Positions 923 through 50,154 of a stretch of 64,000 bases of DNA are shown piece by piece. Position 1 is the first letter of the stretch. Each line of letters starts with the position of its first letter. Source of the DNA: a methanogenic archaeon ISO4-H5 (GTDB taxonomy: Archaea; Thermoplasmatota; Thermoplasmata; Methanomassiliicoccales; Methanomethylophilaceae). Both the position numbers and the translations under genes were made by a program. The stretch is taken from NCBI GenBank assembly GCA_001560915.1, contig CP014214.1:434001-498000 (forward strand). The letters run 5' to 3'. The notes beneath the pieces were generated by a model that was not told where the DNA came from, made no database searches, and saw only the letters and a program-made list of their open reading frames with translations.

Positions 923-2338
923 TCACATCTTGCTGAAGGCATCGAGCTTAGCAAGGTCGAGCGGATTCACCGAAGATTTCATGGATGATGCGTTTTCCAT
1001 GTCCTTCATGCAGATGACCTCATCTCTGTCGCTGTCGATGGATCTCTTGATGGCGGACAGTTTGAGTCTGTTGCAGAACTCGGTGACATCGGCTGCGTTG
1101 AACCCGTCGGTGATCTCCGCAGCCTTTCCATAATCGAAGTCAGGTGCTACGGGCAGACCATCCAGGCAGTTCCTGACTATCTGTTCCCTCGCCTCCGTGT
1201 CGGGCAGGGAGACATAGATCCTCCTGTTGAAACGGCCCGGACGCAGCAGGGCGCTGTCGATGGTCCAGGGCATGTTGGTGGCCGCGAGGACCAGCAGCGT
1301 ACCCTCGTTTTTCTCGAATCCCTGCATCTGTGCCAGCAGTTCTGATAAGAGCTTGTCCGACCAGGGCTGGAGGTCGTTTCCCCTGGCACGGCCGATGACC
1401 TCGAACTCGTCGAAGAAGATGACCGATACCGGGAGCGAACGGGCGGCTTTGAACAGTTTCTTGACGTTCTGCTCACTCTCTCCCACATATTTGGAGATGA
1501 GATCGGACCCCTTCACCGAGAAGAAGGCGGCGTCGACTTCCGTAGCAATCGCTTGTGCCAGCATGGTCTTTCCTGTGCCTGGGGGGCCGTATAGCAGGAC
1601 ACCTCCGCCGGATTCCATTCCGAAGCGTCTGTACAGGTCCGCTCTCTTGAACGGTGTGATGATGAGTTCGCGGATGGCTTCCTTCACATCCTCCAGTCCG
1701 GCGATATCTGCAAAGGTGACGCCTGTGTCCATCACCGGACGGTATTTGCTGAAAACGGGATTCTTGGGATCGAATGTCTGGGTCATGCTGATGACAGGGA
1801 TCTCCGCCGGTTCGCCTTCCCTCCTGGCAACGGCGATGAGCTCGTTGCTTCCTTCCTCTTTCTCGTAGATCCCTCCGGGAACGTCGGCCAGTTTGAGCGG
1901 GTTGTTGTTCTCATCGAGGAAGGTGCAGGTGAAGCAGCTTACCCCGAGTTTGGTACTTGGCGCTATGGAAATGTGGCGAAGGGCGCGACAGTATCCGAAC
2001 GACCAGATCCCGGCACTTTTCAATGAATCGGGAAGCACCAGTTCCTCCAGAGAGGAACACATGAGGAAAGCATAGTTGGCAATTTCCCTCAGGCCTTCAG
2101 AGAAGGTTACGGATTGGAGCGAGGAACAGTATGCGAACGCGTTGTGGCAGACCGTCTCCACCGAAGCGGGGATGACCACCTTGCGCAGCTGGGTAAAACC
2201 TTTGAATGCTTCCTGACCGATAGATATGACCTTAAGTTCGCTTACAGATTCGGGTATATCCACAAAGTCACGGTCAGTACCCTTCACTAGAGAAAGTCCT
2301 CCCACAGTGTTCTCATATTGCATTCCGTCGTATTCCAT
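923..2338 (-). CDS. Fusion of BspA-type leucine-rich repeats with an AAA+ ATPase
   Basis: This 471-residue protein has two parts. Residues about 20-150 form LRR_5 (BspA-like) repeats with recurring units such as IGQEAFKGFTQLRKVVIP and FAYCSSLQSVTF. From about residue 205 there is a Cdc48/FtsH-type AAA+ module: FADIAGLEDVKEAI, Walker A GPPGTGKT, Walker B VIFFDEFEVIG, sensor 1 AATNMPW and arginine-finger segment LLRPGRFNRRIY. AAA+ proteins of this type remodel or unfold proteins; the LRR part could select a substrate. There is no signal peptide or membrane segment, so it is probably cytoplasmic. LRR_5 repeats usually occur on secreted or surface proteins, so the fusion is unusual. Function is not known; the domain calls are secure. 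Confidence 0.85.
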   Translation of the reverse strand: MEYDGMQYENTVGGLSLVKGTDRDFVDIPESVSELKVISIGQEAFKGFTQLRKVVIPASVETVCHNAFAYCSSLQSVTFSEGLREIANYAFLMCSSLEELVLPDSLKSAGIWSFGYCRALRHISIAPSTKLGVSCFTCTFLDENNNPLKLADVPGGIYEKEEGSNELIAVARREGEPAEIPVISMTQTFDPKNPVFSKYRPVMDTGVTFADIAGLEDVKEAIRELIITPFKRADLYRRFGMESGGGVLLYGPPGTGKTMLAQAIATEVDAAFFSVKGSDLISKYVGESEQNVKKLFKAARSLPVSVIFFDEFEVIGRARGNDLQPWSDKLLSELLAQMQGFEKNEGTLLVLAATNMPWTIDSALLRPGRFNRRIYVSLPDTEAREQIVRNCLDGLPVAPDFDYGKAAEITDGFNAADVTEFCNRLKLSAIKRSIDSDRDEVICMKDMENASSMKSSVNPLDLAKLDAFSKM

Positions 2339-2410
2339 GGTTCTCCCTGCAGAAGCTATCCGAAGACAGTATAAAAACTGGGCGAGATTTTTGTACCCTA
2401 TCTAGATACT

Positions 2411-2839
2411 GTGTCCGTGAAGAAGTGCATCCTCTACGACAGCAACACCGGCAACACGCGTGCCATGGCAGAGGCTATTTTCGACGGGGCAAAGGAATCC
2501 GGAGCGGAAGTATCCATCTCCAAGGTGACCGAAGCAGACATAGATGCTGCCCTGTCCTGTGACATTCTCTATCTCGGTTGTCCCGCCATGGGCGTCGAGA
2601 TGGTGGGGGACGGACAAACCGATTTCATGGCGGAGGTCAGGATGCGTTTCCAGGGCAAGAAGGTGGCAATCTTCGGTTCCTGTGCCCACGGGGAAGGTAT
2701 CTGGCTGAGGGGCTGGTCCTCGAAGCTGAAAGCATACGGGGCCACCGTCGTTAATTGGCCCGGACTGATGTGCAAAGGACACCCTGACGAAGAATCCCTT
2801 GAGAGATGCAGGGCCTTGGGTGCTGACGAGTTCCTGTGA
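2411..2839 (+). CDS. Flavodoxin-like protein
   Basis: The N-terminus MSVKKCILYDSNTGNTRAMAE contains the FMN phosphate-binding loop (S-N-T-G-N-T) of flavodoxins, followed by the second-strand region ILYLGCPAMGVEMV and the FGSCAHGEG loop in the place of the usual flavin-contacting Gly-rich turn. At 142 residues it matches short-chain flavodoxins, which carry one or two electrons between redox enzymes. It starts with GTG at 2411, 72 bp from the divergent LRR-AAA gene; TATAAAAA around 2372 lies at a suitable distance. The DsbA-like oxidoreductase follows 43 bp downstream, possibly in one transcript. Redox partners are unknown. Confidence 0.85.
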   Translation: MSVKKCILYDSNTGNTRAMAEAIFDGAKESGAEVSISKVTEADIDAALSCDILYLGCPAMGVEMVGDGQTDFMAEVRMRFQGKKVAIFGSCAHGEGIWLRGWSSKLKAYGATVVNWPGLMCKGHPDEESLERCRALGADEFL

Positions 2840-11471: not shown

Positions 11472-12365
11472 TCATCTCGGAGCGCCTGGGATATGCCTGC
11501 CGGTTCTGCTCTCGAAGAGCTCCATGCCTATCGCTCCTGTCAGTATCAGTAGGGCGCCGAGCCATTGTTCGGAGTACAGGGATTCTCCCAGGAGCACCAC
11601 TCCCGCCAGCAGGGCGGACAGCGGTTCCAGATATCCCCAGACCGAGATCGTCTGCGTGTGGAGCTTCGGTATGGTGGAGAAATACAGCAGGCATCCGAAG
11701 GCGGTATTGGCAAGACCCAGCACCAGTATCGGTAACCAATCATCCGACTGAACGGAAATTGTTGCACCGGATGTCGCCAGCGAATAGACGAGGACGGTGG
11801 CGAAGGCTGCCAGCAGCTGAATGGAGGAGTTCTCCAGACCGTCCACGCCGGTGACTTTCTTCCCGAACACCAGCATCGCGGCGTGCGCCAGTGCGGAACC
11901 GATACCGAGGAGATATCCCAGAGGGTCGACGTCTGAGCTTACGGATCTGATGCACATCAGGATGGCGCCGATTAGTACTGCGGCGAAACCTATGAGTCCG
12001 GGTGCGGTGAGCTTCTCCTTGAAGATTACGGGGGAGAGAATCAGCACCACGGCGGGTCCGCAGTAGTAGAGCATGGAGGAGATCCCTACACCTGCCAGGA
12101 TGTATGCCTCGTAGAGGAAGATCCAGCTTATCCCCAGGGTGATCCCGGAACCGAGGACGTACAGCATCTGCCTCCTGTCCTCGGGCATGGTGAATCTCCT
12201 CCCGAGGATCACTGCAGTAATGGTAAGGGCAGAACCTCCGATGAGTGTCCTCAGCAGCACTATCTGGTTGCTGGGGAGGTCGATCTGGTTCGCTACCGCT
12301 CCGTTCGTACCGAACAGGACGAGGGAGAATAGGAACAGTGTGAAGGTTCTGTCAGTGTTGTTCAC
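11472..12365 (-). CDS. EamA/DMT-superfamily transporter
   Basis: A 297-residue integral membrane protein with about ten hydrophobic helices in two EamA repeats. Examples are FTLFLFSLVLFGTNGAVAN at the N-terminus and GYLEPLSALLAGVVLLGE near the C-terminus, the latter being the conserved P-containing helix of the second repeat. DMT carriers export amino acids or other metabolites. It is transcribed divergently from the LysR gene at 12446, the classical arrangement for a LysR-regulated exporter, with an 80-bp AT-rich shared promoter region. The substrate cannot be told from sequence. Confidence 0.88.
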   Translation of the reverse strand: MNNTDRTFTLFLFSLVLFGTNGAVANQIDLPSNQIVLLRTLIGGSALTITAVILGRRFTMPEDRRQMLYVLGSGITLGISWIFLYEAYILAGVGISSMLYYCGPAVVLILSPVIFKEKLTAPGLIGFAAVLIGAILMCIRSVSSDVDPLGYLLGIGSALAHAAMLVFGKKVTGVDGLENSSIQLLAAFATVLVYSLATSGATISVQSDDWLPILVLGLANTAFGCLLYFSTIPKLHTQTISVWGYLEPLSALLAGVVLLGESLYSEQWLGALLILTGAIGMELFESRTGRHIPGAPR

Positions 12366-12445: not shown

Positions 12446-13312
12446 ATGGAAACAAACCTCCTGAAATACCTCGCATTCACCGAGATCGGGGAAGGGAAGA
12501 GTTTCACTGAAGCATCCGAGATTCTCGGTGTATCCCAATCCGGAATCAGCAGGATGATATCCGATCTGGAGACCGATTGGGGGTTCAGGCTTTTCGAGAG
12601 GGATCGCAACGGGGTCCAGCTCACTCGCGAGGGAAGCGCCCTCCTCCCTTATGCCAAGGCACTGTGTTCCGATTTCAAATCGCTGGAGAGTGCGGTCTCC
12701 GGTCTGAAGGACCCTTCCCGCGGACACCTGAGGATAGGGGTGTTCTCCAGTGTAGCCACATACTGGATTCCGAAGATAGTGTCCCGTTTCAAGGAGGATT
12801 ACCCGGATGTCACCTACGATCTTCTCCTGGGGGATTATGCCGAACTGGAGGAATGGGTAGCCGAAGGGTCGGCCGATTTCGCATTCTCGCACAAACCCGC
12901 CTCCCCGGATTTGGATTGGGAACTGCTCGATATGGACGAGTATCTCGCGGTAATGAGAGACGATGACCCAATGGCCATGGAGGATTACTGTCCCGCCCAT
13001 TGTCTGGAGGGGGTACCGTTCATGCTGCTGGAACGCGGAGGCAGGTCGGAGGTCGGGAACTATCTGGAGGAGAACCGCGTGCATCCCGATATCAGGTTCA
13101 GGACCTGGGACGATTATTCGGTAATGTCGATGGTCTCATCGGGTCTGGGTACCGGGGTGCTGCCCTCCCTGATTCTGAAGAACCTCCCTGACAGGGTGGT
13201 CACACGTCCCCTGAAACCCCCTCTTTTCAGAGAAATCGGTATCATAAGCAGAAAAGGACGTCCGCTCACGCCGGTGGCGGACAGATTCATGGATTATCTG
13301 AAGTACCGCTGA
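12446..13312 (+). CDS. LysR-family transcriptional regulator
   Basis: The 288-residue protein starts with a winged helix-turn-helix (METNLLKYLAFTEIGEGKSFTEASEILGVSQSGISRMISDL...) in which SQSGISRMISDLE is the recognition helix, followed by the LysR linker helix and a two-lobed effector domain from about residue 88 (RGHLRIGVFSSVATYWIP). LysR proteins bind upstream of a divergent target and respond to a small metabolite. The target here is probably the EamA exporter next door and its own gene. It ends directly against the convergent ThiF-fold gene (13312/13313). Confidence 0.93.
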   Translation: METNLLKYLAFTEIGEGKSFTEASEILGVSQSGISRMISDLETDWGFRLFERDRNGVQLTREGSALLPYAKALCSDFKSLESAVSGLKDPSRGHLRIGVFSSVATYWIPKIVSRFKEDYPDVTYDLLLGDYAELEEWVAEGSADFAFSHKPASPDLDWELLDMDEYLAVMRDDDPMAMEDYCPAHCLEGVPFMLLERGGRSEVGNYLEENRVHPDIRFRTWDDYSVMSMVSSGLGTGVLPSLILKNLPDRVVTRPLKPPLFREIGIISRKGRPLTPVADRFMDYLKYR

Positions 13313-14020
13313 TCAGCAGCCGGTTATGCGGCGGATGACGAGCGACGCCAACGTCATTCCGAAAATGGCAGGAACCGTCGGCAGGGATCCGAGGACACCC
13401 TTTCCGTGTTCGTCCCTCTTCTCCGTCTTCACCGTCACAGGCTCTGTGGAGTAGACGCAGGTCATATCGGAAGTGTCGACATCCCTCATCTGCTTCCTCA
13501 GCTGTGAAGCGAGGGGGCAGGTGTCGGTCTTCTTCAGGGTGGCGATGCGTACGGCCGAAGGATCGAAGTGCATGGCGGCACCCATCGAGGCGTAAACAGG
13601 GAGTCCCCTGTCCAATGCGGCCTTGTCGATCACCGCTTTGTTCCCGATGGTATCGATGGCATCCACGAGGATGTCCCAGTCGCCTTCGAGGATCATATCG
13701 ACGTTATCGGTGGAGATGTACTCATCGATGCCTTCGATGTCTATGTCGGGATTGATGAGACGGGCTCTTTCGCATGCAACTTCCGATTTTATCCTGCCGA
13801 CGGTTTCCGTGGTGCAGAGCACCTGACGGTTGAGATTGCTTTCAGAGAATACGTCCTTGTCTACTACGCGGAGTTTGCCGATACCTGCTCTCACGAGACC
13901 TTCAATCACGTATCCTCCGACGGCACCGCAGCCGCAAACGATAACTCTGGCTCTTCTGAGTTTTTCGATGCCGTCGTCTCCGACGAGGATGCGGGTGCGG
14001 TCATACATGGACTCCGTCAT
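13313..14020 (-). CDS. tcdA: ThiF/HesA-family E1-like protein, probable tRNA threonylcarbamoyladenosine dehydratase
   Basis: The 235-residue protein carries the E1-like nucleotide-binding loop VIVCGCGAVGGYVIEGLVRAG, the NLNRQ motif for ATP binding (SESNLNRQVLCT), DILVDAIDTIGNK, and ends with TVPAIFGMTLASLVI. The overall order and short length fit TcdA/CsdL, which cyclises N6-threonylcarbamoyladenosine at position 37 of tRNA. There is no ubiquitin-like partner or catalytic rhodanese domain nearby. It is the last gene of the rpe-fen-tatD-tcdA operon; its ATG overlaps the tatD stop (ATGA at 14017-14020). Alternative members (MoeB, ThiF) cannot be fully excluded. Confidence 0.82.
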   Translation of the reverse strand: MTESMYDRTRILVGDDGIEKLRRARVIVCGCGAVGGYVIEGLVRAGIGKLRVVDKDVFSESNLNRQVLCTTETVGRIKSEVACERARLINPDIDIEGIDEYISTDNVDMILEGDWDILVDAIDTIGNKAVIDKAALDRGLPVYASMGAAMHFDPSAVRIATLKKTDTCPLASQLRKQMRDVDTSDMTCVYSTEPVTVKTEKRDEHGKGVLGSLPTVPAIFGMTLASLVIRRITGC

Positions 14021-33477: not shown

Positions 33478-33630
33478 GGGGTGCAGTCCCGCATCCCTCT
33501 AAAACTCCTTACTCCCTCATGGTGTTCACTGTCATTTTTAGGTCTTTTAAAACAGGTTCAGCCGATACTTGGAGATATATTCCGTTTGTCAGCAATTGCG
33601 TTTATAAATCTGTAATGGTGTGCTATACAC

Positions 33631-33864
33631 ATGAAGGAAATTACCGAGGACGAGGTTCTTTCCGCAATCAGGGAGAACCCCATGATATGCACCCGTGCAT
33701 TGGTGAAGAAGCTCCGTCCCGAGGAGTTCAGGGATCAGGAAGCGTACAAGGAGTACCTGTGTGCCCTGTAGCCTTTGCTGACCAAGCTCTGGAAGGACGG
33801 AACGATAATCTCCTCGAAGGTCCAGTGCTGCACTTTTAATTTGAAGCAGTGGCAGATCGCATAA
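33631..33864 (+). CDS. Small winged-helix-like protein with in-frame TAG (candidate pyrrolysine codon 47)
   Basis: From ATG 33631 (TATA-like TTTATAAA 30 bp upstream) the frame runs 46 codons (MKEITEDEVLSAIRENP ... YKEYLCAL), meets TAG at 33769-33771, and continues in the same frame for 30 more codons (PLLTKLWKDGTIISSKVQ...WQIA) to TAA at 33862. The part after TAG looks like the rest of the same fold: an amphipathic helix followed by the wing-like strand of a winged helix. With TAG read as pyrrolysine the product is 77 residues; with TAG as stop it is 46. No other gene here ends in TAG, which favours read-through. The function is unknown. Confidence 0.65.
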
Positions 33865-48652: not shown

Positions 48653-48862
48653 ATGGCAAATGACCAGCAAATGAAAACGTGTACTAACTGTCATACTCAA
48701 GTAAATAAATACAATTTAACGGGAACAGTTTCACGATCAATCATGATAAACGGTGATGTGCCAGACACACTTTTGAAAAGAAAAATTGGGGGGAGTGGCC
48801 CCCTGAGTTTTCAACGCTTCTCGAGAGGGACGTATTCCCTCTCCTTGGCGATGCTCACGTAG
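48653..48862 (+). pseudogene. Possible 5' remnant of a zinc-ribbon protein gene
   Basis: The frame starts MANDQQMKTCTNCHTQVNKY, like the N-terminal zinc ribbon of many archaeal membrane proteins (K-x-C-x2-C-x3-V), but has only one Cys pair, AT-rich codons unlike the neighbours, and runs through the citrate synthase terminator into its antisense strand. It could be a gene fragment truncated near the TnpB insertion, or chance. Confidence 0.2.
48789..48803 (-). terminator. Terminator of citrate synthase
   Basis: GGGGG (48789-48793) and CCCCC (48799-48803) with a 5-base loop. On the minus strand it is followed by CAATTTTTCTTTT. Confidence 0.7.
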
Positions 48863-50154
48863 GCGGGACGGATGATCTTGCCGGAGCTGACCAGTTCCTC
48901 GATCCTGTGGGCGCTCCATCCGCTCGCCCTCGCGATGGCGAAGAGCGGGGTGTAGAGCTCCTCGGGGATGCCGAGCATCCTGTAGAGGAATCCGCTGTAG
49001 TAATCCACGTTGACGCAGACCTTGATGGGAGACTTCCTCTTGGTGGCGATCACGTCGGGAGCGAGCCTGGCGACCCTCTCGTAGAGGTCGAGCTCCGCGT
49101 CGCATCCCTTCTCCTTGGCCATCTTGTAGACGAACTGCTTGAGCTGCTGGGCCCTGGGGTCGGAGATGGAGTAGACCGCGTGGCCCATTCCGTAGATGAG
49201 TCCCTGGCGGTCGAAGGCCTCCTTGTTGAGGATCTTGGAGAGGTAGTTGCTGAGCTCCCCGTCGTCGGTGGGGTCGATGACGTTGGCCTTGATGTCGTCC
49301 ATCATCTGCACCACCTTGATGTTCGCGCCTCCGTGCTTGGGGCCCTTCAGCGAGAGCAGTGCGCCGGCGATGACGGAGTAGGTGTCTGAACCGGCGGAGG
49401 TGATGACGCGGGTGGTGAAGGCAGAGTTGTTGCCTCCTCCGTGCTCCATGTGGATGATGAGGGCGTTGTCGAGGGCCTCGGCCTCGGTGGCGGTGTACTT
49501 CCCGTCGGGACGGAGCATCATGAGGATGTTCTCCGCCATGGAGAGGGTGGGGTCGGGCCTGTGGATGATGAGGCTCCTGTTGCAGTCGTAGTGGCTGTAG
49601 GCGTGGTAACCGTATACCGCGAAGAGCGGGAGCGTGGCGATGAGCTTCATGCACTGCTTGAGGACGTGAGGGGTGGAGACATCCGTGGGGTCCTCGTCGT
49701 AGGCGGCCATCTCGAGGACGCTGCGGGCCATGGTGTTCATGATGTCCTTGCAGTTCTGCCTGAGGATGACGTTCTTCACGAAGTTGTTGGGAAGCTCCAT
49801 GTTGGAGCGCAGGGCCTGCTAGTACTGGGGCAGGTCGGCGCAGTCGGGGAGCTCTCCGAACAGGAGGAGATAGGAGGACTCTTCGAAACCGCACCTGGGG
49901 GTGTGCTTCCCGACCAGGTCCTCGATGGCGTATCCGCGATAGGCGAGGACTCCCTCCATGGGGACCCTCTGTCCGTCGACGGTCTTGTAGCCGTCGAGCC
50001 TGGAGATCCTGGTAATCCCGGTGATGACTCCCTTGCCGTTCTTGTCGCGCAGCCCCTTCTTCACGTCGTACTCGGTGTAGAGTTCGGCGGGGATCTGCCC
50101 GTTCTCCTCACAGATTTTCGCCTTATCGATGTAGTATTGGTCATGATCGGCCAT
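48811..50154 (-). CDS. gltA: Citrate synthase with in-frame TAG (candidate pyrrolysine at residue 112)
   Basis: Read through one TAG at 49819-49821, this is a full 447-residue citrate synthase, condensing acetyl-CoA and oxaloacetate. Residues 1-111 (MADHDQYYIDKAKICEENG ... LPDCADLPQY) carry the N-terminal domain; after TAG the same frame continues QALRSNMELPNNFVKNVIL to the end. Conserved sites are IHMEHGGGNNSAFTTRV and GMGHAVYSISDPRA (catalytic His residues) and NVDYYSGFLYRML (catalytic Asp). The TAG falls at a variable, usually charged surface position, not the active site. ATG 50154 has AAGGAGGAGG 6 bp upstream. Alternatives are a point nonsense mutation or a sequencing error. Confidence 0.85.

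Follow-up and report, generated by a model that had tools for sequence, protein, structure and literature searches.

The insertion of pyrrolysine (Pyl), the rare 22nd amino acid, at the single TAG of methylamine methyltransferases is established in Methanosarcina, and in MtmB, MtbB and MttB the residue is catalytic. Pyrrolysine has also reportedly been encountered in the Methanosarcina tRNA-His guanylyltransferase by Heinemann et al. in 2009, whose title attributes its presence in a non-methylamine protein to neutral evolution. For the archaea considered here, the main texts of two genome accounts (PMC4153887; PMC5011839) indicate that decoding of an in-frame TAG as Pyl in ordinary genes is an already known event. 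Ca. M. alvus is credited with 16 predicted non-methyltransferase pyrrolysine proteins, with TAG accounting for 1.6% of terminations (PMC4153887), and the rumen methanogen ISO4-H5 with 46 genes that contain in-frame amber codons, 17 hypothetical proteins among them (PMC5011839).

Here we describe a small gene in a 64,000-nucleotide stretch of the ISO4-H5 genome (the window), in which a TAG at codon 47 is, with a probability of about 0.93, read by tRNA-Pyl as pyrrolysine within one 77-residue winged-helix protein, where it would replace a conserved lysine. It shares with MtmB, MtbB and MttB the genome, the decoding machinery and, most probably, a TAG read as Pyl, but its site is mostly lysine in homologues and no PYLIS element is predicted. 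Like the tRNA-His guanylyltransferase, it would place Pyl outside the methylamine proteins; however, it is a different protein, and its site is occupied by Lys or Arg in every TAG-less homologue and by TAG in two genera. In common with the Pyl proteins described from the Methanomassiliicoccales, it combines a TAG in an ordinary gene and a sense codon in homologues with a complete pyl set and rare TAG terminators, whereas it differs from them in being small, in lacking a family name and in having its site traced over 21 copies. The main-text accounts (PMC4153887; PMC5011839) do not name the gene, which may be one of the 17 hypothetical proteins on the ISO4-H5 amber list (PMC5011839). The new elements are that a protein of no recognised class, restricted to one family, carries a conserved, probable Pyl site, and that the site recurs at this codon in a second genus.

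Translation of the window revealed a single forward-strand frame running from ATG 33631 to TAA 33862-33864 and containing one internal TAG at 33769-33771 (codon 47), exactly as claimed in the first-pass annotation. The translation of 33631-33864 (+) comprises MKEITEDEVLSAIRENPMICTRALVKKLRPEEFRDQEAYKEYLCAL up to the TAG and PLLTKLWKDGTIISSKVQCCTFNLKQWQIA from there to the TAA; the continuation quoted in that annotation, LLTKLWKDGTIISSKVQ, is found after the TAG with one proline between. The features of the locus are as follows.

33600..33609, forward strand: GTTTATAAAT, a TATA-box-like element about 30 bases 5' of the ATG, recognised by eye
33631..33864, forward strand: gene for a 77-residue winged-helix-like protein with one in-frame TAG and its own stop, TAA 33862-33864
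33769..33771, forward strand: in-frame TAG, codon 47, most probably pyrrolysine (homologues: Lys 15/20, Arg 1/20, TAG 4/20)
33772..33774, forward strand: CCT proline codon, kept in homologues, which accounts for the C after the TAG
33772..33861, forward strand: predicted second half of helix 3 and two-stranded wing, the best-conserved part of the protein, under purifying selection

TTTATA or TATATA elements were seen by eye at a similar distance from the ATG in most homologues, and their position suggests that the gene has a leaderless transcript of its own. Inspection by eye of the 21 promoter regions brought out no operator, these TATA-like elements being the only recurrent feature. In the source genome the gene comes after a FecCD-type ABC transporter gene set, a link that most relatives lack; a conserved neighbourhood that might name its function was sought among the homologue loci without success, the neighbours varying by species. 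Given its lone position behind a TATA-like element and these changing neighbours, the gene probably forms a transcription unit by itself.

When 102 genomes of the family were searched, 20 further copies came up at e-values below 1e-29; each aligns collinearly along the full 77 residues, and they are confined to two genera of this one family. Extending the search by profile to 400 genomes of the class yielded, beyond these genera, no homologue other than one chance-level match. The gene reads on past the TAG: the collinearity of 20 further copies across the site settles the continued reading frame. Two outcomes contrary to the proposal of a sense TAG, homologues ending at this codon and a lack of conservation beyond it, were sought among the 20 homologues and neither was found (0/20 end at site 47). 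Of all 21 copies, 5 have TAG at the site, 15 a lysine codon (AAG or AAA) and 1 an arginine codon. The TAG bearers comprise the window genome, three other species of its genus and, from the second genus, one species, G065. An artefact of sequencing or assembly that put T in place of A at 33769 would need to alter only one base to turn AAG into TAG; the same TAG in four independently assembled genomes besides that of the window leaves this explanation a practically negligible chance.

The lysine at site 47 and proline 48 sit inside a conserved stretch, and both this proline and the residue preceding the site (L/I/V) are kept in TAG and Lys copies alike. Conservation within the protein is highest past the TAG, with residues 61-75 nearly invariant and SSKVQCCTFNLKQWQ almost invariant throughout the homologue alignment. 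Among the 5 TAG-bearing copies, the 30 codons past the TAG differ by 9–16 synonymous and 2–6 amino-acid-changing codons, and fourfold-site differences between the four same-genus TAG copies amount to 0.38–0.81 per site, some pairs being saturated. This pattern of codon differences indicates that the segment is under purifying selection. We also scored the 30 codons 3' of the TAG with a codon-usage model trained on the source genome, in which coding stretches average +12.8 and wrong-frame stretches -17.0. The score of +5.4 bits, reached by 2.7% of wrong-frame stretches, is weak and only suggestive taken alone, because one antisense frame scores 8.6 in the same model. The C-terminal half is nearly invariant, in support of the first-pass interpretation.

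These observations bear on the alternative that the TAG is a true stop, so that the gene yields only a truncated product of 46 residues or is a pseudogene in decay. TAG is indeed a stop under translation table 11, and the gene appears dispensable, since no copy was detected in 9 of 14 genomes of the source genus. Against this, the part beyond the TAG is the best conserved and its changes between TAG-bearing species are mostly synonymous; the TAG is common to four species without other lesions, and in a pseudogene the frame and final stop would not survive in all four. We therefore consider truncation or decay highly improbable.

Searches with single proteins (Pfam and NCBIfam) and with the alignment of all 16 members (Pfam and PHROGs) recognised no convincing family, and comparison with PDB sequences likewise gave no convincing match. 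The AlphaFold2 model computed from the family alignment (mean pLDDT 82.8) is a winged helix with an H1-H2-H3-wing layout, the helices spanning residues 6–15, 21–28 and 36–56 and the hairpin strands residues 59–66 and 69–76. This agrees with the fold that the first-pass annotation had guessed and for which it had proposed a structure prediction. Codon 47 is predicted to lie in the middle of helix 3, usually the recognition helix of winged-helix domains, and truncation at residue 46 would thus remove half of this helix and the whole wing, in keeping with the earlier remark that the shorter product would be half a domain. In Foldseek searches the top matches of the model were MecI/BlaI, LmrR/PadR and MarR regulators (probability 0.9–1.0, all E > 0.01), with a TM-score of about 0.65 over the query. 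While the predicted fold is the same, no sequence relation to these regulators was found (Pfam, NCBIfam and PDB searches being empty or at chance level), and unlike them the 77-residue protein has no dimerisation or ligand domain. Judging from the fold only, it is probably a small DNA-binding regulator.

The source genome encodes the machinery needed to read TAG as Pyl. Its PylS scores 275 bits against a profile cut-off of 178, and PylS exceeds the curated cut-off in 5 of 5 TAG-bearing genomes. It does so in nearly all Lys-bearing genomes too, and we accordingly dropped the idea that the TAG at site 47 is tied to whether a genome has the Pyl system. The gene order is pylT-pylS-pylB-pylC-pylD, with pylT 5' of pylS. 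The tRNA gene (GGGGGGCGATCC...CTCTAAAACC...CGCCA), with a CTA anticodon, was recognised by eye from sequence and position and was not reported by an ARAGORN scan. The profile test was applied to PylS, whereas PylB, PylC and PylD were named from their order, their sequence and PMC5011839. Three methyltransferase genes sit beside the pyl genes, each containing a single in-frame TAG: a methylamine methyltransferase gene in two copies (mtmB) and one mtbB gene. One could propose that another near-cognate or suppressor tRNA decodes the TAG as an ordinary amino acid, for example Lys or Gln, and the uniform Lys or Arg at site 47 in TAG-less homologues would suit this. But a dedicated CTA-anticodon tRNA and its synthetase are encoded, and the same genome has single-site TAGs in methylamine methyltransferase genes, the site of established Pyl in Methanosarcina; decoding by such a tRNA is in our estimate very unlikely. 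Insertion of Pyl thus remains the preferred reading, and the lysine or arginine of the homologues and the encoded machinery both support the original interpretation of the TAG as a sense codon.

We rejected the candidate context signals for read-through. The first-pass annotation had observed that both TAGs it noted in the window are followed by C; this is true (TAG-CCT and TAG-CAG), but it does not hold up as a signal, because in the winged-helix gene the C begins a proline codon that is also conserved in the Lys-bearing homologues. No Rfam PYLIS element matched after the winged-helix TAG at E <= 1, and the RNA there folds no better than shuffles (z-score +0.26). PYLIS_2 matches mtbB above its gathering score. 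Two PYLIS_1 matches below threshold (42.1 and 31.4 bits; gathering score 70), at 11681-11783 and 13231-13333 (-) of the stretch L077, lie in the source genome's pair of methylamine methyltransferase genes that contain a TAG. A passage in PMC9499178 reports the PYLIS element as not required.

TAG usage was sampled over 423 kb, made up of the window and eighteen stretches of about 20 kb, with genes called with TAG read through. Of 393 called genes, 346 end in TGA and 47 in TAA. A TAG lies inside 16 of them: about 10 continue as coding sequence beyond it and at most about 5 look like terminators, from which TAG would terminate roughly 1% of genes in this genome. The TAG-containing genes of the sample include those for a corrinoid protein and a geranylgeranyl reductase, in agreement with the genes listed in the main text of PMC5011839. 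A glycosyltransferase (L094, 4535-5665) has a strong coding score on both sides of its TAG, and small unknown genes with TAG read through occur at L085 13913-14314 (TAG at codon 2), L081 9309-9842 and L081 10508-11020. Within the window, the frame 923-2689 (-), read through a TAG at codon 96, corresponds to an AAA ATPase that bears BspA-type leucine-rich repeats. It is unlikely to be a Pyl gene, as the part before the TAG is likely noncoding and the start is more likely ATG 2338.

The other TAG gene referred to in the first-pass annotation most likely corresponds to the citrate synthase gene at 48811-50154 (-), with a TAG at codon 112, a PF00285 match at E 9e-111 and a strong coding score on both sides. 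Its site 112 is Lys, Arg, His, Val, Ile or Met in homologues and TAG in only one other genome (G022), and of the two sites in the window that of the winged-helix gene is the better conserved. The citrate synthase and its G022 counterpart share 99.8% protein identity and 98.2% DNA identity over 1.8 kb, whereas the winged-helix genes of the same two genomes share 94% protein identity and differ at 52% of fourfold sites. This far greater closeness of the citrate synthases suggests recent transfer or mixed ancestry. Other citrate synthases (L117, L121 and L130) have TAG at query positions 57, 289 and 12, though the last of these may lie 5' of the true start. Given these differing sites, TAG seems to have entered the citrate synthase family several times.

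When the winged-helix gene tree is computed with codon 47 left out, TAG requires two changes: the same-genus copies, four in all, form a supported clade, and G065 falls elsewhere. A single TAG clade is nonetheless not rejected (p-AU 0.09), and the tree would fit either two gains of TAG or a single gain with later transfer or reversal. On its contig in G065 the gene has neighbours typical of that species' own genus, in favour of either a separate change in that species or an ancient TAG lost again elsewhere by reversal. Each gene copy has 15–26 codons one step from TAG, 2–9 of them AAG. Recurrence at the same codon in two genera is thus mildly suggestive, but no proof, of a tolerant or favoured site.

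That Pyl in this regulator has been selected, the intact protein needing a supply of Pyl, the gene passing Pyl or methylamine status on to transcription, and the arrangement arising twice at the same codon, seems to us quite unlikely. So, and distinctly, does a selected switch in which available Pyl gives the full regulator and its absence a dead 46-residue fragment, so that the targets follow methylamine or Pyl status. The regulator-like predicted fold, the destruction of the domain by a cut at residue 46, the retention of TAG in four species over large synonymous divergence and the same codon in a second genus would all suit such a switch. Yet Lys-bearing relatives also carry PylS, the neighbours, which vary by species, showed no link to methylamine genes or to pyl genes, retention in four species also fits near-neutral exchange of Lys and Pyl, and two origins of the TAG are not established on the gene tree.

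Returning to plain incorporation of Pyl, we infer that an ancestral lysine codon AAG became TAG by one base. The change would have been tolerated because TAG is hardly a stop in this lineage and a Pyl system was on hand. At least four species of the genus would have retained the TAG since then, and in another genus one relative carries it at this codon too. The product would be a small regulator transcribed alone, whose basic function would not depend on pyrrolysine, since most relatives have lysine at site 47; some ribosomes may stop at the TAG.

Standard gene calling would halve such genes, and in this case the 46-residue remnant would probably be filtered out, leaving the annotation without the regulator. 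Each conserved exchange between TAG and Lys offers a gauge of the shift of TAG from stop to sense in these archaea. A Pyl site in a putative regulator, present in several species and a second genus, would provide a clean small system for distinguishing neutral from useful exchange of lysine and pyrrolysine.
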